The translations under genes and the position numbers were made by a program. A stretch of DNA of 64,000 bases, taken from Nitrospira sp. (GTDB taxonomy: Bacteria; Nitrospirota; Nitrospiria; Nitrospirales; Nitrospiraceae). Shown here piece by piece: positions 23,801-63,111 of the stretch. Under the pieces are notes generated by a model. The model made no database searches and was not told where the DNA came from. It saw only the letters and a list, made by a program, of their open reading frames with translations. The number at the start of each line of letters is the position of its first letter. Within the stretch, counting starts at the first letter, position 1. The stretch covers positions 3,512,179-3,576,178 of the forward strand of contig CP126121.1 of assembly GCA_030123625.1 (NCBI GenBank). The letters are read 5' to 3'.

Positions 23801-26800
23801 TTTGGTAATGACGAATATATCGTGGATGATTCAGGAGATGCGGTTACGGAACTAACGGATGAGGGAATCGATACGGTCCAGAGCAGTGTCACACGTACAC
23901 TGGAAGCCGATGTCGAGAATCTTACATTGACGGGGAGTGCGGCGATTAATGGCACCGGCAATGCACTCGACAATGTGTTGATCGGCAATAGCGGCGCCAA
24001 CGTCCTAACAGGTAGAGCGGGGAACGATACTTATGTGGTCGGCGCAGACGATACGGTGGTTGAACTGACTGGAGGAGGCACGGACACAATACAGACCGGC
24101 GTCAGCGCAACGCTTGGAGCCAATGTGGAGAACCTAACGTTGACCAGCAGTGCTTCATTGATCGGAGTGGGAAATGAACTGGACAACGTGCTGAAAGCCG
24201 ATGGGTCGATCAGCGTGCTGGCCGGTGGTGATGGCAACGACACTTATATCATCGGACCGAACGGTGATGACGACATCCTTATTGAAACCGCCACAGGCGG
24301 CATCGATACGGTGATCGTCGGCCACGACTATCGCCTGCCGGCGAACATCGAAAATTTAACTCTCCTTGATCCGCGAGCACCTGACTTCGCCAGTTTTTCT
24401 CTCATCCCGTATGGTTCCTCCGAACAATCCGTGGCGGGATATGGGAACGATTTGGCGAATACCCTGATCGGCGGCCGAGCGAATAATGTGCTGGACGGCG
24501 GACTCGGCGCCGACACGTTGATCGGTGGTGACGGCAATGACACCTATGTCGTGGACAATGTCGGCGACATTATCATTGAGAAGACAAATGAAGGCGTAGA
24601 TGGTGTGCGGAGCACGGTAAGCTACAATCTCAGCGCGAATGTCGAGAATCTCACCCTCATAGGCATAGCGCCGATCAATGGAACCGGTAACGCGCTGAAC
24701 AACGATGTGAGAGGCAACGACGCGTCCAACGTGCTCGATGGAGGGTCTGGAAATGACGCACTGTTTGGACTCGGTGGGTCCGACACCTATCTCTTCGGCC
24801 GGGGTTCCGGCCTTGATACGTTGTTCGACTCAGAGGCAGCCGGTGAAGTCGATACGATTCAGTTCGATTCGACGGTGACTGCAGAGGATGTCGAGGTCTA
24901 CCGCAATGGATTCAACCTCGAGCTGGCCATCAGCGGGACCACGGATGAGCTGACTCTCCTATCGTTTTTTGATTCGCCCGAATACGGCCAGAAGCAGGCT
25001 CGATTTTCCGATGGCACCGTATGGAGCAGTGCTGAGCTGAATGCACGGGCGTTGATCGGTAACACCATCACAGGATCATCAGATAGTGAAGTTCTTTCAG
25101 GGGGCGCCGGTCATGATCTATTGACCGGATCAGCAGGCAACGACGTATTAATGGGAGGGGCTGGCAAGGACGTTCTGTACGGAGATCTCACGTTCCAACC
25201 GCTGTCTGGGCCGCAGGTCATTGGTGACGATACGCTGATAGGAGGGGGCGGTAACGACAATCTCATCGATTTCAGAGGAAATAATCTTTTTGATGGAGGG
25301 GCAGGAGACGATACGCTGAGTCTTGGGACAGGTGTCGATCGGGTTCTCTTCTATCGAGGATCCGGCGTTGATTATGTGACGCTCGACAATAACAGGAATG
25401 ATATCGATCTCATCGAGATGGCTGCCGAGATCACTCCCGCTGAGGTTGTGATGACATGGCGCTCTCCTTCCAGTGCCGACATTCTTATTTTGGACAGTGG
25501 GGATAGACTGACTGTGCAGCTTTCAACGGATTGGTTTGCGGTGGGACCGGAAACCACGCAAGCAATCGTGCGATTCGCCGATGGCACTCAGTGGAACTTG
25601 GCTTGGTCAGCTTCGAACGTCGGTATTCCCATGGCTACTTCATCCAATGATGTGCTTGAAGCGTCTTTCCCAGCCTCTCTAGTCGGGTTGGATGGAGACG
25701 ATATCTATCTGTTGGGGAGCTCGGGCGTCCCCGGAAATTATGCGGTAGTCGAGGCTCCGGGTGAAGGGATCGATACCGTCCAGAGTCTCTTCGATTATGT
25801 GTTGGATTCTGATGTGGAAAATCTCATTCTTGCGGAGAGTCGCAGCTCAGTACTGCGAAACCCAGAGCGCGGGATCGGTAATGGACTGGACAATCTCATC
25901 ATTGGAAATAGCGGTGACAATATTCTTGACGGCGGCGCTGGCAATGATGTGTTGGTTGGAGGATTCTTCAGGTCTGCCGAGGAATTTGTCGTGTTCGAAA
26001 CGGGGAGCGATATTCTTATTGGCGGAGAGGGTGATGATGTGCTGATGGCCGATGGAGGGAATATTGTCTTCCCAGTGGATGGTTCAGATAGTGAATGGCT
26101 GTTTCTCGGTGGAGGGTCAGAGTTCCGAAGCAACGTGCCGCGCTTAGCCGACGATCTTTTGATCGGAGGGGTCGGCAACGACACCTACATCGTCCATAGT
26201 CAAGAGCAAACGGTGGCTGAGTCGGAGAACGAAGGAACCGACACAGTGAAGAGTACGGTGTCCTATATACTGGGAGCGTATCTCGAAAATTTGGAGCTCA
26301 TTTCACCGCCGGCGATTTTCGACGAGGAGGATCATCTCATCCCTCCGCCACCACTCAATGGAACGGGTAACGAGCTGGACAATGTCTTGATCGGCTCCGA
26401 AGATGCCAATGTCCTATCCGGCCTTACCGGTCGCGATACTCTCGTCGGTCGGCTCGGTAGCGACCGGCTCCTGGGCGGCGCCGGCTATGATACGTATCTT
26501 TTCAATCTCGGCGACGGCATCGATGCGATCGAGGATGTCGCAACTGCCGGCGAGGGGAATCGAATCCAATTCGGCGCAGGGATTGGCCGGAATGACCTCA
26601 CAGTGATGCATGATGAAATCGCTCGAACGCTCACCATTCAAGTCGGCACGAGCGGGACGGACCGGCTGGTACTGAACAATTTCGATCTCACAGGAGCAGA
26701 CGGTTCGCTGGTGGTGGAAACCTTGGCCTTTGCCGATGGCAGCACGGCGAGTATCACTAGTTTCTTCGGACCGACCATCACCGAAGGGAACGACACGATC

Positions 26801-37521: not shown

Positions 37522-37802
37522 AGAGAGCCGTCCGAATCCCTACTTGAACCACGTGTCAGCTTCTCGTCAAAACACGCACGCACGCATCCCATGGCAACTA
37601 TTTTGCGGAAATTGAGCCGAGTGGACGTGGCCGGTATTGCTGAAGTCATCAGTACAACTGGAGAGCTAAGCTAGAAATGGTGCCGAGGGACAAAATCGAA
37701 CTGTCGACACCAGCCTTTTCAGGACAAGAAGAAAGTAAGCAAGATCAAATAGATAAGCTCAAAACACAGTGCAAACAGTGACATTTCATGTCATGAAAAA
37801 TC
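37522..37802. other. Intergenic boundary between core and accessory DNA
   Basis: No coding frame of note. A short ACGC repeat tract lies near 37573-37586. From here rightward the gene content switches from housekeeping to toxin-antitoxin, mobilization and defence genes. Confidence 0.4.
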
Positions 37803-46768: not shown

Positions 46769-47320
46769 ATGGGCAAGACGGCGAAACGGATCACCACGGT
46801 CACGGTGGACTTGGGGGAGCTGAAAGCGCCCTGGCAGACCTGGTGTCAGGACCATGGCATCACGCCGAGCCATGCCCTGCGGCAGGCCCTTCGGCTAACC
46901 ATGGACCGGAGAGCAACGCGGACACCGGCGCCTCGGAGTCGCGTTAGCCCGAGGCGAGAACGAGCGACCGCTCGCATGGAAGTGCATCTCACGGCATCTG
47001 AATTAGCGGCCCTGAAACGGATGGCCGGTCACGAAGGCTACATGCCGACGAAATGGGTAGTGGCGATGGTGCGCACCAAATTGACCGGGCAGCCGCAGGT
47101 CGGACAGCCGGAATTGGAGACATTGGCCCGGTCGAATCAGCAGTTGCTTGCCTTGGGGAGGAACCTGAACCAGATTGCGAAAGTCCTGAATACCGCGCCT
47201 CAGAACAAAGCAGTCTTTCGGGTCGAGGTCATCACCGAACTCTCTCGCGTGATCCAAGCCCATACGAAGAAGGTGTCCGATGTCTTACGCGGGACCGTGG
47301 AGCGCTGGCAGCTCCAATGA
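46769..47320 (+). CDS. mobC: MobC-like relaxosome accessory protein
   Basis: The 183-residue protein has a basic, Arg-rich middle and a C-terminal MobC-type block (LARSNQQLLALGRNLNQIAKVLN). N-terminal and central segments (ITTVTVDLGELKAPWQ; MEVHLTASELAALKRMAGHEGY) look like ribbon-helix-helix elements that bind oriT DNA and help open it for the relaxase. Its stop overlaps the relaxase ATG (ATGA), showing coupled translation. ATG 46769 is the first in the frame; a candidate oriT lies upstream. Confidence 0.85.
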   Translation: MGKTAKRITTVTVDLGELKAPWQTWCQDHGITPSHALRQALRLTMDRRATRTPAPRSRVSPRRERATARMEVHLTASELAALKRMAGHEGYMPTKWVVAMVRTKLTGQPQVGQPELETLARSNQQLLALGRNLNQIAKVLNTAPQNKAVFRVEVITELSRVIQAHTKKVSDVLRGTVERWQLQ

Positions 47321-48300
47321 CCGCGCCACCCGACCAAATCGATCAGAAGTTGGATGAGTGGGGGAGTCGGCTCTTCAATGTCTCAACGGAGACTCTCCCT
47401 CGACCGCGTCGCAGTGCGCGTATTTCTATTGGCTCAGCCAAGCCTATGAATACCGGCGGACGGCTCAGCACGTCACAGGCTCGTGCGACCTATGTACGGC
47501 AGAAACTGCAGGCGATGGTTCGTCGCTCGCCACAAGTGGTGGTTAAACTCGTCAGGGCGCCGAAAGGGATGAAAGGCATCTCGAACAACCTCACCTACAT
47601 TTCGCGTGATGGTCTCCTGGAGATCGAGGATCAAGACGGCCAGGTGATTCTCGGGAAGGAGGCCGTGGCCGATCTGAAAGCTGAGTGGCGCGACGGCGGC
47701 ATGCCGATCGCGGCGGACTCCACTATGCGCGATGCCTTTCATCTTGTCCTCTCCATGCCGACACGCACCGATCCGCTTTCGGTCCAACGCGCGGCTCGTG
47801 ACTTTGCGGCGCGAGAGTTTTCCGGGTTTCAGTACGCGATGGTCCTCCACACGTTCGAGACCGATCCAGATCCACATCCATCTCCGCATCCGCATGTGCA
47901 TCTCACGGTGAAAGCCGCGAGCCTCGATGGGTTTCGCTTGAATCCGAGGAAGGCCGATCTGCAACGGTGGCGCGAGGGGTTTGCGGAGGCGTTACGGGAG
48001 CATGGCATTGAGGCTACGACCACGAGCCGGATTCATCGGACGACGCATGAACGATGGACGGTGCGGCACCTGCATGAGGTGAGTAGGAAAGGAGAGACGC
48101 TGGAGCGGTTGAAACGCACAACGCGCCGACATGGACGAGCCCAGGAAGTTATGCGGAATTATGAGCACGTGATGCGGGCGTTAGCCCGGTCAGATCGTGG
48201 GGAGGATCGGCAACTGGCTGCAGACCTGGTTCGTTACTTGAGTGAACGGTCGCGGGATGTCTCGAAGACTCGTTCGCCGGAGCGAGACCGGTCTTCTTAA
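47317..48300 (+). CDS. Relaxase (mobilization nuclease, MobP-like)
   Basis: The 327-residue protein from ATG 47317 contains the expected parts of a HUH relaxase: a probable catalytic Tyr in NNLTYISRDG (residue about 94), an intermediate SMPTRTDP block and the metal-binding histidines in LHTFETD ... HPHVHLTVKA (about 178 and 191-195). The C-terminus is basic and probably DNA-binding; there is no helicase or primase domain. Such proteins nick oriT and lead single-stranded transfer using another element's secretion system. No type IV secretion genes are present, so the element would be mobilizable, not self-transmissible. Confidence 0.88.
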   Translation: MTAPPDQIDQKLDEWGSRLFNVSTETLPRPRRSARISIGSAKPMNTGGRLSTSQARATYVRQKLQAMVRRSPQVVVKLVRAPKGMKGISNNLTYISRDGLLEIEDQDGQVILGKEAVADLKAEWRDGGMPIAADSTMRDAFHLVLSMPTRTDPLSVQRAARDFAAREFSGFQYAMVLHTFETDPDPHPSPHPHVHLTVKAASLDGFRLNPRKADLQRWREGFAEALREHGIEATTTSRIHRTTHERWTVRHLHEVSRKGETLERLKRTTRRHGRAQEVMRNYEHVMRALARSDRGEDRQLAADLVRYLSERSRDVSKTRSPERDRSS

Positions 48301-48741: not shown

Positions 48742-50142
48742 GGTTCAATGCAGATTCGTGTGGGTACATTCTGCTCATTTCTTCGGCAAGAAGGCCGTGA
48801 GAATTTTGAGACGCATGTACTCCTCATCCCGGTAGCCGTAGGCGCGCCGTTGAATCACGTGAATCTTGTTATTCAATCCTTCGACAAAGCCCAGCTTGAC
48901 CTTGTTGCGGGGCGTGCAGTACGCCACGATCCCGTCCCAATGCCGTTCGATCAAGGCGGCAAACTGTTCAAAGGGGCGGAGCCGTTGCCACTTGAGTTGC
49001 TCCCGCCAGCGGGTGAAGAACTGGCGCGTCCACCCCTCCCGGCGATAGGCCCAGAGTTGGCCGAATTCTTCTTTGAGCAGGTAGGCCGTGGCCAGGCGCT
49101 TGTTGGCGCGCAGCAGCTTCTGCAGGGATCGGCGCCCAGCCAATGTGAGATTGGCGCGGTGGGAAAGGAGCGTGTACCGCTGGCCCTTGATGAAGGTCCG
49201 GTCCTTCGCCGCGACGCGGTGATACTCGGCACGGCGGACTTGATCCATCGCGTCAGCCAGATGACGCAGAATGTGGAACTTGTCAAAGAGGATCTGGGCC
49301 TGCGGTGCGTGCGTCTGGACCGAGTTGCGGAACGCCTTCCACATGTCCATCACGGCCAGCCGAATACGGGCCGTCTTCGTGGGGCCCAGGTCGAGAAAGA
49401 ACCGGTCCAGGTCGGCTTCAGTCCGGCCCTGCCCTCCGATCCAGATCGGGCAGCCGCGTTCCAGGTCGCTCACGACGATGCGATACGTGTGGCCCTGCTT
49501 GATCGACAACTCATCCACGCCGATGACCTGCGGCGCCGCCGCCGGCATCTTGGCCAGCCACGCCTGCATGTACCGTATGTCCAGGTCTTTGACCGTGTGC
49601 TCATGCAGGTGCAGCAACTGCGCCACCGCCTTGTTCGACATGTCCCGACACAAGGTGCCGACGTGGTGAGCAAACCGCTGCGTATAGCGGGGATTTTGCG
49701 CCAGCCAGTCCAGCCGCTCCACCTTCACCCCTCGACAGCGCACGCAGGCCACCCGCCGCTGCTCAAACGCCAGGTAGATACGCCAGCCCGCCGCATCGGT
49801 ATCCCGCACCCGGCGGGTTGTGCGGTCATAGCAGGTGCGGTGCCGTGCCCCACAGCCCGAGCAAATGGCGGTTTTTTTCGCCGGACCAGGGTGACGAGCC
49901 GGGCGTGGGGATCACCAAAGATCCCTTGCAGCTGGCTGCGGGCGCGGAATCCTGGGAAGGAGAATAAGGCGGAGAGGGTCTGGACACGCTTCATGCGTCC
50001 TCCTGGCCAAAGGCGGCTCGGAGTCTGCCACTGAGCTTGGACAAGATTCGAGTATCGGACGATCACGCCACACCGCAGGCTGGCTGCGGAGTTGGAGAAC
50101 AAGAGACTCTCTCATTTACCCACTCCAATCTGCGGAGAGCCC
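48742..50142 (-). mobile_element. ISL3-family insertion sequence with perfect 8-bp target duplication
   Basis: Ends are imperfect inverted repeats: GGTTCAATGCAGATTCGTGT at 48742 and GGCTCTCCGCAGATTGGAGT reading inward from 50142, both continuing GGGTA. CAATAACT stands immediately outside both ends (48734-48741 and 50143-50150), the 8-bp duplication typical of ISL3. The element is 1401 bp. The perfect duplication says it arrived as a unit and has not since recombined. It lies between the mobilization module and the 3' end of the defence operon. Confidence 0.92.
48775..49994 (-). CDS. ISL3-family transposase, expressed across a -1 frameshift at A7
   Basis: ATG 49994 (AGGAGG 4 nt upstream) opens a short frame (KRVQTLSALFSFPGFRARSQL) whose continuation, a zinc finger (ICSGCGARHRTCYDR) and the DDE domain (VIGVDELSIKQGHTYRIVV, LAVMDMWKAFRNSV, FVEGLNNKIHVIQRRAYGYRDEEY), is in the -1 frame. 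The switch is at seven A on the coding strand (49878-49872), read A AAA AAA in the first frame, which is exactly a slippery heptamer. The fusion is about 406 residues, a normal ISL3 length. Either programmed -1 frameshifting makes the transposase, or one A has been gained or lost. The C-terminus LTAFLPKK is complete. Confidence 0.85.
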
Positions 50143-50382: not shown

Positions 50383-50862
50383 TCATGTAGTACTGGTATT
50401 AAGACTGCTTTGTACTGTGCTGTGTCCTTCTTTCATACGAATTATGGCAGCGATTTTCATTGCTGCCAGATCAGGGTCTTCGTGTTCCCATATTCTGACT
50501 GCGTGCCATCCCACTAGATGGAGTCGCAGTATCGTGTCACGGTCTCGTCGGCGATTGGCATCAATCTTTTCGGACCACCATCTCCGGTTTGCTTTCGGAA
50601 CAGTTCCGTGAACAGAACAGCCATGCCAAAAGCATCCATCGACAAACACCGCAACTTTGGCGCGCCTAAAAATAATGTCAGCTGTTCGGTTCAGTTCTTT
50701 GATTACTCGCTGATGAACTCGGTATCGCAAACCCAGGCGATAGAGGCTAGAGCGAAGCCTCATTTCTATAGGCGTGTCTCTTTGAGGTGTAGCGCGCATT
50801 CTTGCCGTGGCGGTTCGCGAAGATGAAAGGGGCAGGGTACAAGGACCATTTTTAGTGCTCAA
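50383..50862 (-). CDS. vsr: Vsr-type very-short-patch mismatch endonuclease
   Basis: The protein has the complete Vsr core: RMRATPQRDTPIEMRLRSSLYRLGLRYRVH, ADIIFRRAKVAVFVDGCFWHGC (with the metal-binding Asp and the His), HGTVPKANRRWWSEKI, and NRRRDRDTILRLHLVGWHAVRIWEHE. Vsr nicks next to T in T:G mismatches that arise when 5-methylcytosine deaminates, so it normally protects a cytosine methyltransferase site. It overlaps the methyltransferase gene by 11 nt; the TTG at 50862 is the furthest start, and the protein may start slightly later. This links it to the same operon. Confidence 0.92.
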   Translation of the reverse strand: MSTKNGPCTLPLSSSRTATARMRATPQRDTPIEMRLRSSLYRLGLRYRVHQRVIKELNRTADIIFRRAKVAVFVDGCFWHGCSVHGTVPKANRRWWSEKIDANRRRDRDTILRLHLVGWHAVRIWEHEDPDLAAMKIAAIIRMKEGHSTVQSSLNTSTT

Positions 50863-52015
50863 GGGATTTTGCTTTCATACGCTTGAGATGATAGGCAACA
50901 CTTCCTAGAAATCCTGGATGGAAATGCAATTTGCTCGCTCTCGCTCGAGTCAGGAAACCTTCCGTTGCGCGGGCTGAGAGGTCCTTTGTTGGAAATTTGA
51001 GAAACTGCTCAAGTAAAGGGGCCATTTTTCGCATTGGCCACTCACTTAAATCTAATTTATAGCGCTTCCCCTTATGCCCCCATCCCGCCTTTGCCCAATC
51101 GTTTGGATCTTGGACTTCCAGCTCTTTCAGGTACCGTCCAGGATTTAAGAGTCGTTGTCCAACCCACTTTGCAACCGGCACGCTCAGCGCATTACCGACG
51201 AGCTGCCATCGTAATCTGTGGGGAAAAGCCGCACCACAAATATCAGGGTCCGTCCACCCGTGGGGAAGTCCTTGCAATCGCTCTGCATCCCTGATGTTTG
51301 GCACTACAATGGACCGAGATCGCGGGAACCAGATCGCTGGAGGAGAGGGAATGGAAAGCTTAGAGCCCTTCTTTAGCGCAGGGATAGCATTCACTGCCCA
51401 TCCTAGGCCCTTGTTTCCTTCTGTCCAATAAAAACCGCATGCAACATTGCTACTGTGACTGTCATTCTCACTGTTATCACAATAGTTTGCCTCATCGCTC
51501 AGGAGTACAGGGCGAGGATCATCGGCGTTCGAGGCTAATATGAGTACTCTTTTCCGACGCTGCGGCAACCCAAAGGCTCTTGAATCAACCACTCGATAAG
51601 CCCAAGTGTAACCTAGATCTTCAAGCCTCCTCGTGATGTACCTCATCGCCCGCCCTCGATGGAGCTCGATCATGAAAGGCACATTTTCGAGAAGAATCCA
51701 GCGCGGCGCGTTCCCAGGTAAAGCAGCAATACGGAACACTTCCCGTATCAATTTTGATTCGCCAGCATGGATTCCCTTGGTCCGACCTGCCTGACTCAAG
51801 TCCTGACATGGAAAACCTGCGCACAGTAAGTTGACTTTGGGAATGCGACGAAGATGACAAATGTCTTTTGTTAATGGAGTGTCAGGAAATCTATGCCGCA
51901 ACACACTTGCGGCGGCTGGTTCAATTTCACACAGCAATTCCGGGAAGAAACCTGCCTGGCTCAAGCCTCGTTCAAATCCTCCTATTCCAGCGAAGAGTCC
52001 AACCGTAGTATTCAT
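50852..52015 (-). CDS. druM: DNA (cytosine-5-)-methyltransferase, DruM-like
   Basis: The 387-residue enzyme has the C5-methyltransferase motifs in order: FAGIGGFERGL (SAM binding), GFPCQDLSQAG (catalytic Pro-Cys), LLENVPF (Glu-Asn-Val), PQRRKRVLIL, then a target-recognition region and the RLQGLPHGW ... QLVGNALSVPVAKW end. It would methylate cytosine at an unknown site and so mark self DNA. ATG 52015 has AGGAAA upstream. It lies 73 nt after the helicase gene and overlaps vsr, the layout of a cytosine-methylase-bearing type II Druantia operon. The symbol is given by context. Confidence 0.85.
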   Translation of the reverse strand: MNTTVGLFAGIGGFERGLSQAGFFPELLCEIEPAAASVLRHRFPDTPLTKDICHLRRIPKVNLLCAGFPCQDLSQAGRTKGIHAGESKLIREVFRIAALPGNAPRWILLENVPFMIELHRGRAMRYITRRLEDLGYTWAYRVVDSRAFGLPQRRKRVLILASNADDPRPVLLSDEANYCDNSENDSHSSNVACGFYWTEGNKGLGWAVNAIPALKKGSKLSIPSPPAIWFPRSRSIVVPNIRDAERLQGLPHGWTDPDICGAAFPHRLRWQLVGNALSVPVAKWVGQRLLNPGRYLKELEVQDPNDWAKAGWGHKGKRYKLDLSEWPMRKMAPLLEQFLKFPTKDLSARATEGFLTRARASKLHFHPGFLGSVAYHLKRMKAKSLEH

Positions 52016-52088
52016 GGCTTTTCCTAGAGGCTCTGATTGAGTGGTGGAGGCGATTCTATCTCATTTGTCCTTGAAACTCGAGACATAG

Positions 52089-55000
52089 CTATACTCGAGA
52101 AAAGTTTCGGCGAAGTCTTTCCCGTTCGGTAACCTGCCGCCTCGATAACTCGAATGTATCGCTGAATTCGACACGGCCACCCAACTCCCGAATCGCTTCA
52201 GCCAGAATCCCTGTGGGATTGCCAATGTTCCACAGGGGATGGACCACCATCACCCATTGAGAACGTGTCCGTTCGAAACGAAATGCGGTTAGTTGCCCTA
52301 CTTTTACGACCTCCCCACCGGTTCCATAGTTTGCAATGAGGTCATTCGCATACTGTTCTGCTAATTGTGGCCAGTCGGATAACGAGTGACTTGTCTGAAA
52401 GGCTCCGTCGAGACCGCAGTTGAACTGATCGTTTTCCATGCCTTCTAAAAAGCTGAGACCTAGTCGCCAGTCTAATAAACCATGATAAGGTTGGTTGCCA
52501 TATCGCTGAAGACAAAAATAGCAGGATTGGTCACATTGCTCTGCATGGTTCAAACCTTCCTTGGTACTTCTGTATTCGCTTAAAGGAAACGCCGAGGGAT
52601 CTTTCACGATTGACCTGGTCAAATTGACGACCATAGGATCGCCATTATCTATTGTGGCCAGGCGCTCGCAGAAACCGGAGCCGTTGACTAGATGATCAGT
52701 GATTTGGAGTACCGGAATCATGCCCTCTGTAGAAATCTGTATTCTGGGGTCTACGATATCGAATTCCTCTGGATCGATATCCAGATCAAGAGCTGCACGA
52801 TGAACGAGTATGAAAGTCGCTGATAGAGCCGCAGCTCGCACAGATGTAACATGATTCGCTCCACTAACCCGTTCAAGCTGAAGGCTCCTTGGCACCTTTC
52901 GTACCGAGATAAGTAAAGAATCGGTCGTTTTCGGAGCTGCTAGCCAGAAATTTCGTCGAGAAATACCGTTTGGGTCTGGCTGGTACCCATTTTGAGGAAC
53001 CAAATCGGCAGCGACATATTGATTAGTTAGACGAGTATGCCGGAGTCCCGGAATTTGGTGGTTATAAACATCCGCATTGAACCCTCCTGCCACAGCGGGG
53101 GTTGAAGTGTTACGATTCAAACGATACGTTCTTGCTTGCCGTAAGAAGTCAAAACTGAGATTAGAGGTCGTGTACTTGAGCCGCAATTCACGGTATTCCG
53201 CAGTAATGGAACGATGTTTTGAGCCAACCCTTACGTTGTCATCGATGGGACCAGGTTGTAAATCAGTTCTAAATCCGGCTGGTGTACTACATTCGCCAAT
53301 CAAGTCGGTTGGCATAGAGAAAGCACATGTGCTGCAAGTTGGAGCAACTGGCATGGCCTCAAACCTATGCCAACTACCGCAGTTGCTGCATTGGAGCAAC
53401 CAAAAGGCATCTCCCAATGCTGGACACCACGGAGTGATATCTCTTGATGCGTTCCAAGAACCTGGTCTGAAAGATTCTTCAAGAGTTCCAGTGAAACCTA
53501 TTGAGAGATGTTGCATTTTGTCTTTGATAATCGTGGCACCGGGGGCAAATTCAAAAATCGCCAAGTCCAAATCTCTATCGATCGTACTCCATTGACGTTG
53601 GTTTTCTTCACCTTGGCGCGTGGCGACATAAAGATTCCGGACGCGAGTTGGCATTCCAAACATAGGGAGCAAACCTGCCTCTGCTAGCGTATGTGCAAGA
53701 CCCTCTCGTACATCGTTTGCGAGAAAATCGCGCGCATGTCGGATTTCCTCAATGACATCATCTGGACTCAAGTCTTGGACTAGTTCACTTGTTTGCAGCT
53801 CCAAATCAGCAGTAAGGACCTCGGAAAACCTATTTCTATCATTAATAGTTGCATTAAGCTCATGCCTCAGGCGCGATTCCCAATTTTGGACAGTGTCGAG
53901 ATAATCCTGTGTTGGGATAAATTCACCATGAATGTCAGGGGCGGCATCATCGCCAGGGTAAGGAGAGCCGGTGCTGCGACACTGGGTCCGGATGTTCTCA
54001 AACGCTCGCGCCAACCAAGCCTTACGCAAGAGCCGACGCGCAATTATTGCTTGGCGTTTTGTCAAAAACGGCGCTGGAGGTGGGTCGCCTGTAATTCGAG
54101 CTGGATTTCTAAAGTAGTAAAGATCATGACTCTTGCTACGACAAATAGTGCTAACAAAAGAATAGGATTGGCCACGGCGGCCCGCTCGACCAACGCGTTG
54201 CTGGTAATTGAATCGCTGAGGTGGCATGTTTGCTTGAAAGACTGCCTGGAGCGGACCTATATCTATTCCAACTTCCATAGTCGTCGTCACGGCTAATAGA
54301 TCGATGAGCCTAGCCTCCTCTTCTATTGTGGATTCAGCAGAAAACAGTATTCCTTTAAATCGTCGCTGACGTTCTGCAGGATCATCCGTTTGTCCTGTCA
54401 GTTCTTCGCATCTAACCCTGAAGACCGGTTCTTTTCTCGTCACTCTCTTGCCCAAGAAATTGGTTCGCCGGATTTCACTCACTGATCCCACTGGTGTACC
54501 GAGTGGCCCCCAACATCGAGTACAAACACTGGCACCATCATGTAAATGGACACGGCCACATCGGGGACATCGCCAATAAGGATCATTCTGGTCAGGAATC
54601 CTTAGGCTCAGGCAGCCGGTGTGTAATATTCCGCCTGCATGTCTTTGAGAGTTTAGAATTGACAGCACCCGATCTAACTCAGCTCTAGCAGCTTCATCAC
54701 TGCCCAGTGCAGCCAATGCAAATTTGTATACGCGCTCCGTAGGTCCTATTTCTTGTGGACCAGACCAATCCTTTGGTAGCTCATCATAAGGACTCTCATT
54801 GATCCGATATGAATCCCCTAGGACGCGAACATAGGCCGCGATGACGTTTTGGTCAACAATGTCGTGAACGGCAGATAACGGAACTGTCGGGTACCCCAAC
54901 CCCGTTTCCTCCAAAGAGAAATATGTCTTATTGAAGACGGTTTGTGCGATTGTCTCCATGGACTGCCTAACGATTTCTCGGCGCACATCATCGACGTCGG

Positions 55001-58000
55001 TTCGATGATTTGGCATATCTTTCCAGTCGATTCCTGAAGGACTTGTTCGAAAAAACTTATACCAGTCATAGCGTACGTCACCGATACGAAACTTTCTCAT
55101 TCCGGTTTCATCCACTGGATGCACACCAAGCTGGACGAAGCGACGCAGGTACGGCTTCAGTACTGACCTGTCTGGTAGCAGCCCCTGAAACTCGGGGTTG
55201 TCTGGAGTTTCTACTATCTGCGAGATAGGAATCGTGGGGGTCATCGGCTGCTTTGAGGAGCGCCCGTAGCCGTTTGCCCTCCGCCTGTAAGTCATCTAAC
55301 CTTGGATCATCGTTTTCCGTCGCCTTGATTGTTTCTGCCTTGTTCTTCTCATATGCTGAGCGCAATTCCTCCCGGCCTGGTCTACTCCTAATAGTTTCAT
55401 TAATCGTATCGATTAGGATCTGCCTTGCTAAATCCTCGTGATGCCTACGTTCTATGTCGAGGGCTGCTTTTGCAGCGTCCTGACGGCTATCCGAGAATGA
55501 TACCAATTTGGGATTGTTCGTAACCTTGTGAAGGAGTTCGAAAATCTCCGTTACGAATAGTTGAGTTGTTTTGGAAAAACCAGTTCGAAAGTTTCGAATG
55601 GGAGATAATCGGTAGCCTTTTTTTCTAAACTCGTAGCTGATTCCGCAAGAGGGGCATGCATATGGGACGCAGGAACCGGGATCAGTGGATGTCCGTCGAT
55701 GCCTATCTCGGACTTCACGTCGTTCATAAAAATAACCGTGCATCTGAGTTTCATCTTGCCAGGGGTCCATCCTATTGTTCGCCAGTCTCACCATTCCGGT
55801 TATGGGATCGAGTGAGGCGCGGCGCCAATCCCCCACATTTTGACCCGCAGGCATAGGCTGCACATCACTTTTTGGCCAAAACACTCCAAAAGTCTCAGCA
55901 GTAAGATCTTCGAATAGTTGAGAAGATGCTGAATCGGGAAGTCCATCAAGATCGGGATCGACGGGCAATAACTCTAAGAGTGAGGAGCCAATCCTTCCAC
56001 CCTTCATTCCTGCAAAGAATAGTTCACCACAGCACTCACAATAAATGAGCTCAAGTAATCGCTGCTGCCTTCCACCAACATTCGAGAATCTCAGTCCTCG
56101 CTCAACCGTGAGAGGACCTATTATTTGATTGCCCCTCTTAGAAGTGTCTCCAAGGAGAGCCGGAGCGAAAAGCCCTTCGATACTTCTGAAGAAGAAATGG
56201 ATCCTAAACGATGTAGCCTCTATGATCGGGGCGCCTGGGAACCATGTTCTGTACAAGTCACCAAGTCCCCTCAGAAGGAGAATGCCTCGCAAGGCACGGG
56301 ATTCCAATTCCGATTGTTTGCCAAACAGTCGATCGCAAACAACGTCGGTGGGCGTTGCTGAGCGATCGCCGGTTTTGTGATGAAGACACGCCTTTTCGAG
56401 ATGTAAGCTCGCTACCTCAATACAAGCCTTCACGACGTTCGCAAGACTTGCATGCGCTAATTTAGGCGCCAGGTGGGTGCATAGATTTCGCCATGGTGTT
56501 TCGCTTGCCGTAGGATCTACGGGATAAGCGAGCGAGTCCCCCGGTCGTTGGTGTGCTGCAAGAAAATCTGCAAAGTACTCTGGCTTCAGAATACCGTCTG
56601 GTAACGCCAAGCGGACCGCCTTGCCTGGAAGGATACAATTTCGCCAATCTTCTTTTGACCTTTTCGCCGTTTGGTTTGGCTCATTCCAGGTTCCGTTCGA
56701 ACCAAAAAAATCCCAGAGATATTGCAGACTAATCTCTCCTGCCTGACCTTCCAAGGGCAGAGAGGCACTAGATGCCAGTATCCGAAGTTTGTGTCTATGT
56801 CGAGGATCGTCAAGGCCTAATCGCTCGATGAGTAGACGTAGCAAAAAGCTCACTTCTGTACCGGCGGAACCTCGTTGCAGGTGAAGCTCATCTAGTATCA
56901 GGAAGAAATACGAGTCTTCCCTGGACCGCAACCACTCTCGAGTTTTTCGAAAAATTGGTGAATCTACTTCTCTGGCCAACATGGCATTCAGCATGCTGGT
57001 ATTTGTGATCAAAACATCCGGTGGATGTTCTTGCATATCCCACCGACTCGTCATTTCGTTGCCATCAACGGAAGGGAACAAGAAAGTGGCTTCAGGATCG
57101 TCGTGATCGCGCGCAGCATCCTGGGTTCGCTGCATCTGGCAAACGGCTTTGAAAAGTTTCTTTAACTTCCTTTCACGACGTTTGTGCTCATCATCTCTTG
57201 GAGCTGGATCGTAGTGGTATCCTGTAGTTGGCGTAGCGGACGTGTACTTGCCTAAAAATATTCTGTTTCCTCTGAAAAACCTGTCCATGCATGAACGCGC
57301 CTGATCGGAATCTAGGGCATGTCGAAGCCTCGCCAATTGATCTTCGACGAGTGCATTCATAGGATAGAGGACAAGAGCTCGTACGGCTGCTGGGCGTCGT
57401 TCACCTTTCCGCTGAGCTGCGAATGGAGATCCTGTCGGATTACTTGCCAGGGGGCGATTCGGAAGTGCAGTGTAGCTTGGGAGTGGTTGTCCGTTACTAT
57501 CCTGCCACCATCGTTCTGATAGGAAGTTTTGATCTGGCGGCTCCCAGTTTATCCCTTCGCTAGCCAGCTTGGCGAAGACCGGCAAAAGAAAGGCTTCCGT
57601 TTTTCCTGATCCGGTCCCTGACGTAACAACTGACGGATTGCCAGCAGATATGCCTCTTTTGAGCATTTCAGCCTGATGCGTGTGCATTCCGTACTTCGCT
57701 TGAGGCAGTCCTTCCGCTTCTTTGGTGGGTTCGGCATCGAATAGACCGGACAACACCAAGTGAACGAACGCCTTGCGCTGACGTGAGTCTAGTCCCGGGA
57801 GGCGATCATCGGAGCCCTCGTGTACTAACTCATGTAGCTTGAAACCAACTGATTCATATCGGCTCAACGGCTCAATTATCGGTTCGGTAGCGAGTGATCC
57901 TGGAGATTCCAGCAATCTACGACGCTCACTTGCTACTCCAGGATCCCGAATGTAGAAGGCTGTCTCCAAATAACTGATGTAGAAATCCCTAATCCTGTTA

Positions 58001-58023
58001 AACGAGCCTAATGGGTCATACAT
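52089..58023 (-). CDS. druE: DruE-like giant helicase, reading frame broken once at C5
   Basis: Two frames together encode one superfamily 2 helicase of about 1980 residues. The first (ATG 58023, AGAGG upstream, 15 nt after the previous gene) has motif I GTGSGKT at 136-142, LVLYPMNALVEDQL, Walker B ILDELHL at about 376-382, a CECC/CPSC zinc pair and FSDSRQDAA, the start of the second RecA domain. The second has two Cys pairs (CPRCG, CTRCW), VGIDIGPLQ, the motif VI QQRVGRAGRRG and a C-terminal Cys cluster (CDQSCYFCLQRYGN) of the DUF1998/MZB kind. The switch is at a run of five C (coding strand; 55240-55236); removing one C joins DDP to TIPISQ and restores one frame. The interruption splits the helicase core, so either it is a mutation, an assembly error or recoding. 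DruE symbol is by size, motifs and context. Confidence 0.82.
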
Positions 58024-58038
58024 GCTGTCTTTTTCCTC

Positions 58039-60168
58039 TTAGTCTTCAGTAGAAGAAATACCCCACTTTTCGAAGAGACACATTGCTCTGTTCACGCTCT
58101 TGTCTTCAGAGATATCGATTGGCATGTTTCTAAGCATGGTGTTCGGATCGAGGCCGCGCGAGAGCAGACTTGGAATTAGGGCTATTTCTGCAAGGAGTTG
58201 TGCTTTCAGCTGCTCACTGGAAATAACATCGATCTTGTCTATGGCACTCGCCAGTTGCCGTACCATCCGACGTGATAGACCTGTCAGATCGAGATCCTTA
58301 GCCATATGAGTGGCCAACAGCATCGCATCCGAAGGACCCCCTTCTACTGAGCAGACCCAGTTGGCCCATAAATCGCGGGGCACCGCTGACACTGCTGATA
58401 TGTCTCCCTGACCAGTAGCGTTCATCTTTATGGAGGAGTTGGTTTTGCTTACGTCGATAAAAGTCGCATGTGTCCACATTTCACGCGACATCGGCAGGGC
58501 AAGTGGACTATCAATGATGATACCGGCTAGCAAGATGTTCCAAGGCAGTGAGCCAGATGAACACGCGTAAGAAACCGACTTCCTCGATGATAGCAGTTGT
58601 CCTTGGATAGCGGCGTAACTTCGTAGTAGTGGAAGTAGGACACTATCTAGTTGGCATAGATTGATGTGGTCGAGGACAAGAAGGAAAAGTCCCTTAGATT
58701 CCTTGGCCACATAAGCGACGTCTTCGATAGTGCCCGTGCCCAGTGAAGAAACTATAGGCAATTTCATGAGATCCAACGGAGATACCAATGAGGGGCCCAG
58801 CGTCCCCCAGCATAATCTTCCGCCGAAAAGGCAACCACTAAAAGCTTCTACGGCTTCCCTTGATCTTTCGCCATACATTATGGGAGCGAATCCTGCCGCC
58901 CATGATGCGAGCAACGCGGTAGCCAATTTTGGCGCAAGTCCAACTTGTTCAAGAGCTCTGTACATCGAGGGTATGATTTCTGTTGGACCTAAAGTTGTAG
59001 TATCAGGAGAATCTGTAATAGTGCGGGATGTTTCACTTGAGTGAATTTCTTTTACAGGCTTGCCTAGTGCAGCTCTTAGAACTGCAATGTCTGCCAAAAA
59101 TGAAGATGCGTCACGCGTTATATCCTGAAATTTCTGCTGTAACCGCTGATCGAAGCTTCCCAATGTCTCCTTCACGTGGCTTTCTGCAGAACTGATCTCT
59201 CTGCGCACTTCTTCTAGTCGGCTTTCTAGAGAAACTATTTGTTTTGCTTTTACATGGCGACTAGCTTCCAATTCATCGAGGACTGACCGATGTTTCTTTA
59301 TTGCACTTTGCGCCGCTTCTTCACCTGCCTTGGCAAGTTCCTCCTTCACCATCGGTAGCGATCGAAGGTCAGAAATGGCGTCTTCCGCCAAAGAAATGCT
59401 GGATAATGATTCTTGAGACAGTTTATTCAATCGCTTCAGTCGCTGTTTCTGAAGAAAGGTGAGAGTGGTTTTTTCTATGGCAGAACAGTAAGAGCTTATC
59501 AGTTTGTCGGTTAGTCTAGCTTTCTCAAAAATGGAAGGATCGAGGTCTTTTAGATCACGAATTACGCGCTTCAGAAATGTCATAACGGGAGAAAAATCTA
59601 CTTCGCCTACTTTTTTCTGCCATCCTTTCAATGGTAAGAATTGGTGGTGTTCCAAAGTTACCAAACACAGGTCCTTATCAGGACGATGGACTGTGAGAGG
59701 AGCTTCCAAGTGTTTTTCGTCTATAAAGAAACGATCATCACGAATGGTGAGGTCGAGTGGGCCGATCAATGATCCCGAACGGTCGCGAAATACTATTTTT
59801 TTGCTCAGAGCTGAACGAACCGGTAATCCTTCCTCAAGTAAATAAGCGCGGGCTTCTTCCAGGTCCTTGGCCTGAGGAATATCAATCAACTCAAGCGCCT
59901 GTGAGGGCGAGCCTTTTACTCGGTAATAGTCGTGATGTTCTTTCTCAGGAGAGAAGGTTGGTGAAGGTTCGATGTGAAAATACCATGCTGTATTGGTAGA
60001 TGCTTCGTGAGGCTGCCACCAACTAACGAGCCCGCAATTCAGGAATTCTTCACTTAACGGAAGCCATCGCGCCTTGTCGCTAGAAGCTTGGAATGATGGG
60101 CGAAGCCGTGCAGGACGCCCAGCCCTCTCACCTAACCGGTCGACCACCCCCAGATATGTCGATGCCAC
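58039..60168 (-). CDS. 709-aa ATPase-like Druantia component (DruG-like)
   Basis: Starts at GTG 60168 immediately after the previous TAA, with AAAGGAGGG as ribosome site inside the preceding codons. The N-terminal 200 residues form a domain of unknown fold (WWQPHEAS, LVTLEHHQFLPL). Residues about 255-375 are strongly helical and coiled-coil-like (SVLDELEASRHVKAKQIVSLE). The last 300 look like an ATPase fold: a Walker-B-like LFLLVLDHINLCQLDSVLLPLLR is clear, but no GxxxxGKS/T loop is present where it would be expected. It may be a degenerate ATPase or one acting with a partner. Assigned to DruF/DruG of type II Druantia from position; which of the two names applies is uncertain. Confidence 0.7.
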   Translation of the reverse strand: MASTYLGVVDRLGERAGRPARLRPSFQASSDKARWLPLSEEFLNCGLVSWWQPHEASTNTAWYFHIEPSPTFSPEKEHHDYYRVKGSPSQALELIDIPQAKDLEEARAYLLEEGLPVRSALSKKIVFRDRSGSLIGPLDLTIRDDRFFIDEKHLEAPLTVHRPDKDLCLVTLEHHQFLPLKGWQKKVGEVDFSPVMTFLKRVIRDLKDLDPSIFEKARLTDKLISSYCSAIEKTTLTFLQKQRLKRLNKLSQESLSSISLAEDAISDLRSLPMVKEELAKAGEEAAQSAIKKHRSVLDELEASRHVKAKQIVSLESRLEEVRREISSAESHVKETLGSFDQRLQQKFQDITRDASSFLADIAVLRAALGKPVKEIHSSETSRTITDSPDTTTLGPTEIIPSMYRALEQVGLAPKLATALLASWAAGFAPIMYGERSREAVEAFSGCLFGGRLCWGTLGPSLVSPLDLMKLPIVSSLGTGTIEDVAYVAKESKGLFLLVLDHINLCQLDSVLLPLLRSYAAIQGQLLSSRKSVSYACSSGSLPWNILLAGIIIDSPLALPMSREMWTHATFIDVSKTNSSIKMNATGQGDISAVSAVPRDLWANWVCSVEGGPSDAMLLATHMAKDLDLTGLSRRMVRQLASAIDKIDVISSEQLKAQLLAEIALIPSLLSRGLDPNTMLRNMPIDISEDKSVNRAMCLFEKWGISSTED

Positions 60169-63111
60169 TTAGCGACCCTCCTTTGTTACGGAATTAAGGT
60201 GCGCATACAGTGCGGGCAGTACGGATGCAGGCACAAGTTTCGATCCAAGGATGGGATAGTTTCCTGCTACGGCACGAAGTGCCCGTCGGAGAGCTAGCGG
60301 GATAGGGACCACAGGACCGGTACCTATTTTCATTAATGCGGCTAGGTGTCGCGAAGTAAAGGTATTTATTCGATGGTGCTCAGGCCAAAGTATATCGAGC
60401 GTTGAATTTCTGACCTTATCGTCTGGAAAGGTATAGCGGTACTTTCCATTGCCATTCGAAGATCGAACAGGACCAGGTGCTTGTCTGCTTAATACGGCGA
60501 TAATCCGGGCAATGGGAAGCGGCAAATACAAACTGTCTCCCCAACTCTCGAGTACTCCCTTCGGACGCTTTTCAAAGACCGGCACTTCTGCAGCCGTAAA
60601 TGCAGCGAGCATAGCCCAGGACCTTGAGCGAGTCCACCAAAGTAGTGATCCCTCCCGATAGATCTTGTAGCAATCTGGTCCATCATCCCGACGGCACCAC
60701 TCAACGGAGACGCTCCTGTTGGTAAGCTGAACTGGATGATGGGCAAAGCCCCGTCTATTCCAATCCCATTTCCGATATGTGGGCCAGTTTTTCGGCTCAG
60801 CTGCTTTCTGCTTCATAACCGAGCGTACCGACATGCCGAGTGCATTCGGGCTGCGTAAAAAACTAGGTCCGGCGATATTGAGCTCTTGAGCAAAGGAGGT
60901 GAGGGTATCAATGCTCGTAGACCGACAACGCGGTAGCGTCGGCACAATAGGACAGCATGAAGTCGATTCAATGTTTATAACGTTCCAAGCTGATGACAAA
61001 CGGTTAAAGCGATCAAGAAGAAATGGAGGAACAAGTCCGGTCAACACTGCCTCATAGAAATGTCCATGGCGGAAAACCACGAGCTTCGGAAGGCACGCAA
61101 AATACATCCGGCTTCGCCAGCGGAAGTCACCCATCACATCCAGAATCCCCGCATCAACAAAGGCTCGAAGGACCGACCATACTTCGGGGAATTCTATTCC
61201 AAAGTTTTGAGACAGAAGCGAGGCCAGTGAAGATTCTGTAATGCCTCGTCTTTCAGACAACTCACAGCTCAAAATTGTTGCAAGTGCGCGAGGTAGTCTG
61301 TTTTTAGATTTGAGGACGGGAGGCGTATCCACCTCATTCGTCGGCAATCGCAACCTGACCATCTCCGATTCTTGCTGTGTCGTGACGGCGAGAGCTTGCT
61401 CAGTTAAAGCAACGATGTCGCAAAGTGAACCATCCACAAACCAACGTGAATTATCTGAGGGCCGTTTGAATTCATAGTTACAAAGCCCCTCTATGAAGGT
61501 AATTGTCTTTTCCGCTATGGGAAAATAGTTCGTGAATGCAACAACACGGTGACTTCGTAGCAGATGGTAAGGATCAATTTGTGTGCTGAAACTCCAATTG
61601 TTTGCACTACCTGTAATTCTATCAAGGGAGCTCCATTGATTCGGCTGGATCTCGATACTGACCTTGTCTGCATCTACCACCTCGATAAACGGCAATGCCT
61701 GCGATATTGCCACGAAACTTTCGCCCACGCGCAAACCACCATGAATTATAATTTCAGGAGGTGGCAATGTGTGTTTGAGGCATCGGATGCCGAGCAACGA
61801 CGGATAATGCGAACAATCTAATCTGTACAAACTTTCTATCGTTACGCCTCTCAACTCAAACCAACCTTCATGACTGGACCTGGAAACCTCTAGGATGTTC
61901 CCACTATCTTGAGACGCAGCACGGAAGGAGGGCAACAAGCTTTCTGAAACAAGCGCGCGAAGATTTCCCATCGCTGGAAAATTATCGCAAAGCACATAAA
62001 CACCATCCTCTGATTCTTTGAAGAGAAGGAACCCGCTTGAAACAGCGTTTCGTACAGCACCGAATGATTTTTCAAGCTGCTTGTCTAATTTATGGAATGA
62101 TAATAATTTACTTGTTAGCCCGTGAGCTTCTTGCTCTGCAACGAGGACGAAACGAAATGGCGAACGCCTCGGCGTAAGTAATTGGACCGATTTTATTCCC
62201 GGTATGGCGATTTCCTTATCACTCGTAATTGAAATCCAAAATTGTCCATCGTCGTCTTCCAGTTCGAGTCTGGCCTTGCCATGGTTTTCAGTTTGATGAT
62301 CTGGTACAGAGCTGAGTGCTACTTCGCGTATCGCAGACCAGAATATAGTATGAGAAGCGACGCTCCGGGGCGCACTTCTATAGGTGGAATTGAATTCCTG
62401 AAGCGCCTCCTGGAATTGCACGGTAAATTTACCGATATTTTGACTGATTACACGGTGAACCTCATTAATTTCCGGCTCGTGGCCAACCAACTTGTGCCTA
62501 CGCAGCAAAATTCCCAATGCCTTTAAATCATGCCGGGATGGCACTGCTAGGCGAATGGAATACCCGATTATTGAATGAAATCCAGACTTCGGTATTCTAG
62601 GTAGTATGAGCCGTCTGCAGTTAGGGTCTTCTAGGTTGCGCCGCGTGGACCATTTTTCAAACTCTTCCCACAATTTTCTTAAGCGATTAAGACAATGGGA
62701 CCTCCTTCCGAGTAAAATTGAAAGACGGCTCCTGAAATCACCTATTGATTTGAAATCGCCACCTATGTCATTGGCAACCATGCAAGTTAGCATTAGATGA
62801 GAAAGAAAGGGTGGCGGGTCTGATCCCTCTTTGTTCCAATGCCTATACCGCCTATAGGCGTCAGAGCCTAGAGAACGTGCGCCGATGGCCTGTCGAACAG
62901 AGTCAATGAAGGCGGGTCGAACAGTACGGGAACGAACATTGGCGGCCGCACACAGTTCATCGGTCGTGACGTATAAGCGGACGACATGATTTGAATTGGA
63001 CGTTCCCGAATGGTTTGTGAAAAACTGCCGGTATAAGGCAGAAGTCCAATTATCGATGTGCCAATCTGCGAAGGCATCTTGAGAGCTCTGTGCCTTCATG
63101 ACGGCTGCCAT
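60169..63111 (-). CDS. 980-aa Druantia component of unknown fold (DruF-like)
   Basis: First gene of the five-gene defence operon, reading from ATG 63111 (ATG 63099 is also possible; no good ribosome site at either). The sequence is soluble and long, with no nuclease, ATPase or membrane motif I can name. The N-terminal part is helical and basic (FRSRLSILLGRRSHCLNRLRKLWEEFEKW). The middle contains beta-rich stretches, and the last 200 residues resemble a winged-helix or processing domain (LWWTRSRSWAMLAAFTAAEVPVF). Abuts the 709-aa gene with no gap. Context is the only basis for a defence role. Confidence 0.65.
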   Translation of the reverse strand: MAAVMKAQSSQDAFADWHIDNWTSALYRQFFTNHSGTSNSNHVVRLYVTTDELCAAANVRSRTVRPAFIDSVRQAIGARSLGSDAYRRYRHWNKEGSDPPPFLSHLMLTCMVANDIGGDFKSIGDFRSRLSILLGRRSHCLNRLRKLWEEFEKWSTRRNLEDPNCRRLILPRIPKSGFHSIIGYSIRLAVPSRHDLKALGILLRRHKLVGHEPEINEVHRVISQNIGKFTVQFQEALQEFNSTYRSAPRSVASHTIFWSAIREVALSSVPDHQTENHGKARLELEDDDGQFWISITSDKEIAIPGIKSVQLLTPRRSPFRFVLVAEQEAHGLTSKLLSFHKLDKQLEKSFGAVRNAVSSGFLLFKESEDGVYVLCDNFPAMGNLRALVSESLLPSFRAASQDSGNILEVSRSSHEGWFELRGVTIESLYRLDCSHYPSLLGIRCLKHTLPPPEIIIHGGLRVGESFVAISQALPFIEVVDADKVSIEIQPNQWSSLDRITGSANNWSFSTQIDPYHLLRSHRVVAFTNYFPIAEKTITFIEGLCNYEFKRPSDNSRWFVDGSLCDIVALTEQALAVTTQQESEMVRLRLPTNEVDTPPVLKSKNRLPRALATILSCELSERRGITESSLASLLSQNFGIEFPEVWSVLRAFVDAGILDVMGDFRWRSRMYFACLPKLVVFRHGHFYEAVLTGLVPPFLLDRFNRLSSAWNVINIESTSCCPIVPTLPRCRSTSIDTLTSFAQELNIAGPSFLRSPNALGMSVRSVMKQKAAEPKNWPTYRKWDWNRRGFAHHPVQLTNRSVSVEWCRRDDGPDCYKIYREGSLLWWTRSRSWAMLAAFTAAEVPVFEKRPKGVLESWGDSLYLPLPIARIIAVLSRQAPGPVRSSNGNGKYRYTFPDDKVRNSTLDILWPEHHRINTFTSRHLAALMKIGTGPVVPIPLALRRALRAVAGNYPILGSKLVPASVLPALYAHLNSVTKEGR

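Follow-up and report, generated by a model that had tools for sequence, protein, structure and literature searches.

Druantia type II corresponds to the DruM-DruF-DruG-DruE set of PADLOC and is named Type IV CoCoNuT in PMC12458937. Under the PADLOC definition all four proteins, DruM and DruG as well as DruE and DruF, are required, and the 2021 survey placed the type in Proteobacteria only (PMC8565338). Vsr is not among the Druantia II components in the PADLOC classes, and open-licence papers that mention Druantia together with Vsr or with "very short patch" treat Vsr, in the passages covered, as domains or under RM; a separate vsr gene as a part of Druantia II was not found described there, which is weak evidence. 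Druantia type III and ARMADA share with the present locus a YprA-family helicase core, but according to PMC12458937 they carry a nuclease domain on the helicase (PLD in Druantia III, active Vsr in ARMADA), whereas in Druantia II the fused Vsr appears dead and the live Vsr is a separate gene. Two described methyltransferase-Vsr pairs also bear comparison. At the E. coli K-12 dcm-vsr locus a C5 methyltransferase gene overlaps a downstream vsr, as here, but the pair described below belongs to a defence operon that a mobile element carries, and its methyltransferase is not Dcm. In Caulobacter, ScmA is a solitary C5 methyltransferase functionally linked to VsrA, although the two genes are unlinked and the accessible part of PMC12907096 mentions no defence operon.

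Judged from its sequence, the 64,000-nucleotide stretch of Nitrospira sp. DNA analyzed here (the window) contains a phage-defence operon of Druantia type II that lies on a mobile element and was probably acquired horizontally. The operon (50383-63111, minus strand) consists of druF, a divergent druG, druE and the genes for a C5-cytosine methyltransferase and Vsr. It resembles Druantia type II in having DruF, DruG and DruE in canonical order together with a C5 methyltransferase, in its degenerate AAA+ DruG with a coiled coil, and in the apparently inactive Vsr-like domain that ends DruE. It differs in that the methyltransferase lies at the 3' end and has its best match in another model than DruM2, in the free-standing vsr as an extra gene and in a frameshifted DruE; moreover, vsr-bearing loci of this kind also occur outside the Proteobacteria, in contrast to the PADLOC survey (PMC8565338). 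The features are as follows.

60169..63111, minus strand: druF, 980 aa (PADLOC DruF2, 4e-42; profile-profile comparison with the canonical DruF2 family, 100%, E 1.5e-52)
58039..60168, minus strand: druG, divergent, 709 aa (P0003; hhalign of its family to the DruG2 family of locus L083, 99.7%, E 4e-26; AlphaFold model with Foldseek/VIA)
55108..58023, minus strand: druE N-terminal half, 971 aa (PADLOC DruE2 positions 1-923 of 1928)
52089..55295, minus strand: druE C-terminal half, 1068 aa (PADLOC DruE2 899-1925; MrfA, Z 12.4; I-Bth0305I, Z 5.9)
55233..55242, minus strand: druE frame-change site, CCCCC run (alignment to intact relatives)
50852..52015, minus strand: C5-cytosine DNA methyltransferase in the DruM role, 387 aa (C5 motifs; PADLOC MTase_II PDLC03324, 425 bits, DruM2, 110 bits)
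50383..50862, minus strand: vsr, T:G mismatch endonuclease of very-short-patch repair, 159 aa (TIGR00632, 114 bits; 1cw0, E 3e-16)
37677..37723, plus strand: att repeat, 47 bp, duplicating the 3' end of tRNA-Phe (counterpart in the tRNA gene, G000:C1:3580634-3580680, outside the window)
47053..48300, plus strand: MobA/VirD2-type relaxase of the carrier element (Pfam PF03432, 2.2e-9)

Components of the operon and its carrier element

The sequence-only reading of this DNA had described five minus-strand genes separated by 0, 15, 73 and -11 nt. The ORFs of 980, 709, 387 and 159 aa and all four gaps were verified, the -11 nt overlap assuming a TTG start of vsr (the alternative is an ATG at Vsr codon 22), but the supposed single helicase gene of about 1980 residues consists of two ORFs in different frames. 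Assignment of the locus to Druantia type II was borne out: PADLOC profile searches returned DruE2 with E=0 and DruF2 with 4e-42, and DruG was recognized by family alignment, a single-sequence PADLOC search of the 709-aa protein having given no match. The 980-aa protein thus supplies the DruF and the 709-aa protein the DruG of type II, and neither points to a different system. The reference locus L083 scores 1080 (DruG2), 1357 (DruF2) and 691 bits (DruM2) for its own genes, profile-profile cross-comparisons of DruG with DruF were negative, and PDB sequence searches with DruF and DruG gave no relevant match. Druantia type IV, in which DruL replaces DruM and DruG, was rejected: the operon has DruG as well as a C5 methyltransferase, and DruL4 reached only 15.6 bits, within the DruF protein.

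An AlphaFold model of DruG (pLDDT 81; rows from plasmid records were excluded from the input of this and the other structure model) shows an N-terminal beta domain, a long coiled coil at about residues 238-368 and a C-terminal domain of AAA+ type, which resembles 2r44 (Z 15.1) and McrB of E. coli (Z 13.6) and so falls with the MoxR/McrB AAA+ proteins (Foldseek/VIA). The P-loop GxxxxGK[ST] is absent from all 31 rows of the DruG family, so that the earlier description of this protein as ATPase-like holds for the fold only. A P-loop-less DruG agrees with the inactivated CnuB (McrB-like) proteins that PMC12458937 describes for Druantia I and II.

The two druE ORFs, P0001 (55108-58023) and P0002 (52089-55295), lie in different frames with an overlap and cover successive parts of the same profile, DruE2, which is the best PADLOC match of both (997 and 1036 bits). 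Alignment to the DruE of locus L031 puts the frame change exactly between residue 929 of P0001 and residue 20 of P0002, inside gatgaCCCCCacgatt, and one surplus C in the CCCCC run near 55,237 accounts for the split. The N-terminal half carries RecA1 with SGTGSGKT and DELH and is out of frame past residue 929; the C-terminal half, whose homology starts at residue 20, carries RecA2, the DUF1998/MZB Cys cluster and a degenerate Vsr-like domain. In the relatives L031 (71% identity over P0002) and L032 (65%) DruE is full length and in one frame across the site. A programmed frameshift is therefore ruled out, and the split would be either a mutation or an assembly error. The window copy thus does not encode DruE as one intact gene, which bears on function rather than on kinship; its methyltransferase and Vsr are intact, but its restriction arm may consequently be dead. 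At another locus, L101 (Enterobacteriaceae bacterium B14), DruE is likewise in two ORFs that meet in nearly the same region (profile 973/969), and vsr has an in-frame TGA.

In a model of the C-terminal 369 residues of DruE (pLDDT 85), residues 2-255 resemble the DUF1998 region of MrfA (Z 12.4) and residues 278-369 the Vsr-like endonuclease domain of I-Bth0305I (Z 5.9, a moderate score). The catalytic Asp is absent from the corresponding stretch, matched by eye, in 22 of 22 sequences. As modeled, DruE ends in a Vsr-like fold without the catalytic aspartate, that is, a dead one, in agreement with the inactivated Vsr domains reported for Druantia I and II in PMC12458937. PDB 9wae and related entries contain a solved 1970-aa helicase that matches the DruE2 profile and offers a ready template for type II DruE.

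The methyltransferase (C5 methylase match, 3e-42) is complete, with all the main C5 motifs (FAGIGG, GFPCQ, ENV, QRRKR and GNA); PADLOC scores it at 425 bits with a general type II MTase model against 110 bits with DruM2, and its nearest relatives within the survey set are those of other Druantia II loci. Vsr exceeds the curated cut-off of TIGR00632 (114 against 97.85 bits) and matches E. coli Vsr. Its length is 159 aa with the TTG start and 138 aa with the ATG start, and it keeps E25, D51, C66, F67, W68 and H69, with the FW wedge present, and the catalytic residues are conserved in 52 of 52 sequences. A 428-aa ORF at 48748-50034, with no Pfam or PADLOC match, faces vsr.

The carrier is an integrative mobilizable element of about 30.8 kb at tRNA-Phe, bounded by the 47-bp repeat, whose copies lie at window 37677-37723 and, beside the integrase, at G000:C1:3580634-3580680 (L112). 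It encodes the relaxase and an ArdC anti-restriction protein, and the operon has a GC content of 47-50% against 57-59% in adjoining element genes. PADLOC found no further defence genes among eight ORFs of the element that were tried, and promoter and terminator scans returned no more sites than in shuffles. A 3854-aa ORF is present at window 17849-29413.

Linkage and placement of vsr at DruE2 loci

Eighty related DruE2 loci with 10-kb flanks were annotated with HMMs, and distances were taken from whole-genome searches of the survey genomes for PF03852, PF00145 and DruE2; the counts combine a 50-genome set, picked after the vsr results had been seen, with the remaining 30. A vsr gene lies within 15 kb of 51 of 81 DruE2 loci (63%), so that vsr does neighbour type II loci. 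At DruE2 loci with a C5 methyltransferase the figure is 49/66 (74%), whereas only 23/101 (23%) of the remaining C5 methyltransferases in these genomes have vsr close by (Fisher P 5e-11, uncorrected for relatedness). Conversely, 52 of the 75 vsr genes in the survey genomes sit at DruE2 loci. Of the 76 loci whose context is complete, 52 have both genes, 16 the methyltransferase only, 8 neither and none vsr only; at DruE2 loci of complete context vsr is thus shown to occur only with a methyltransferase (0/8 at methyltransferase-free loci). Phylogenetically independent pairs (n=5) bear on the same dependence, about three agreeing and none opposing, which is not significant alone. The 16 complete loci with a methyltransferase but no vsr make vsr dispensable; the expectation that Vsr is a regular, under-described accessory therefore stands as to frequency, although the gene is not obligatory.

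The window's family also has DruE-like loci that belong to other types; near the eight examined, neither vsr nor a C5 methyltransferase was found. The vsr-bearing loci belong to Pseudomonadota, Acidobacteriota, Gemmatimonadota, Actinomycetota, Myxococcota, Planctomycetota and Binatia. Both the identity of vsr and the regularity of its linkage to Druantia II are well supported. A vsr gene, outside current system definitions, accompanies about two thirds of the 81 related operons.

Several loci depart from the usual content. In L055 (Paraburkholderia sp. C35) the N-terminal half of DruE is missing and the methyltransferase survives as a fragment, with vsr intact. In the window's own genus, L023-L024 have in a row genes for a C5 methyltransferase, for a protein of 725 aa and for a DruE2-like helicase of 2016 aa, with no vsr and no recognizable DruF. 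A megablast search with the E. albertii locus against 5,426 E. coli genomes found no copy.

The position and orientation of vsr fall into eight classes. One common layout is methyltransferase-F-G-E with vsr after druE; another, that of the window, is F-G-E followed by methyltransferase and vsr. On a FastTree tree of 86 DruE sequences at least 39 class changes and at least 20 presence changes of vsr are required, which together with the eight arrangements points to repeated, independent placement. Vsr and methyltransferase lie more than 10 kb apart, at opposite operon ends, in 11 of the 36 loci that have both, so that vsr is not merely riding with the methylase gene; in 15 of 37 loci no more than 500 nt separate it from druE. 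Between Vsr and DruE distances there is a correlation (Mantel, 0.31), and the partial correlation with methyltransferase distances given DruE is 0.01 (p 0.38), in a test of low power in which distant methylases saturate. Co-evolution of Vsr and methyltransferase as a proof of matched specificity was discarded, there being no signal.

Explanations for the linkage

We consider it probable that the operon is a Druantia II system with a C5 methyltransferase-Vsr pair that repairs T:G mismatches at its own methyl marks. The methyltransferase would mark host sites with 5-methylcytosine, and DruE, an SF2 helicase with an MZB/DUF1998 region and a dead Vsr-like domain, would attack DNA together with the pseudo-AAA+ coiled-coil DruG and with DruF, the target presumably being DNA without the mark or with an infection-associated structure. 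5-Methylcytosine deaminates to T. The operon's own marks would thus give rise to T:G mismatches, beside whose T Vsr would nick, and the ensuing short-patch repair would lower the mutational cost of the mark. Repair is the best inference for the function of Vsr, and a fairly good one. It is favoured by the excess of vsr at DruE2 loci with a C5 methyltransferase, by its absence from complete loci that lack one and from the DruE-like loci of other types, by its repeated placement, by its spread over several phyla and by its conserved catalytic residues. Against it count the missing signal between Vsr and methyltransferase distances, the 16 complete loci with a methyltransferase but no vsr, and the small number of independent pairs.

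Alternatively, Vsr could be an effector nuclease that nicks phage DNA opened by DruE and so replaces in trans the activity lost from the degenerate Vsr-like domain. The resemblance of that domain to I-Bth0305I (Z 5.9) with its aspartate missing in 22 of 22 sequences, the closeness of vsr to druE in the 15 loci and the fact that Vsr distances track DruE rather than the methyltransferase would all fit an effector. We nevertheless regard it as unlikely: none of the eight complete methyltransferase-free loci has vsr, 16 loci with a methyltransferase do without it, vsr is often on the opposite strand, and Vsr retains the mismatch-reading aromatics F67, W68 and W86. A broader proposal, that Druantia II shifted Vsr activity from the helicase-fused and now dead domain to an active Vsr encoded by a gene of its own, which would mend deaminated self marks and might also nick for the system, strikes us as rather improbable; if true, Vsr would be a functional fifth component and not housekeeping.

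The confinement of vsr at complete DruE2 loci to those with a methyltransferase would also be expected if vsr stabilized the methyltransferase by turning genotoxic once methylation is lost. Such addiction has been proposed for the unlinked ScmA/VsrA of Caulobacter, where, according to PMC12907096, the DNA damage response without ScmA needs VsrA. By this analogy it may operate here, which we think quite improbable; its benefit may coexist with repair, and the two readings are not exclusive. It is very doubtful, finally, that vsr came along as part of a generic methylase-vsr cassette or through defence-island crowding, with no link to Druantia. To be sure, vsr lies near 23% of unrelated C5 methyltransferases in the survey genomes, and the window methyltransferase falls in a family that PADLOC files under type II RM. 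Against such hitchhiking stand the threefold excess over the same-genome baseline, the many independent vsr placements and the 11 loci with vsr and methylase at opposite operon ends; in the window, moreover, the druE-methyltransferase gap of only 73 nt and the methyltransferase/vsr overlap mean that no restriction endonuclease gene lies between.

These results widen the range of type II Druantia beyond the Proteobacteria and give Druantia II search models an added component, vsr. Druantia II constructs without vsr may be mutagenic or incomplete. Methylation-based defence has a mutational cost, which becomes testable with an operon that repeatedly gains an enzyme of its own for T:G repair.
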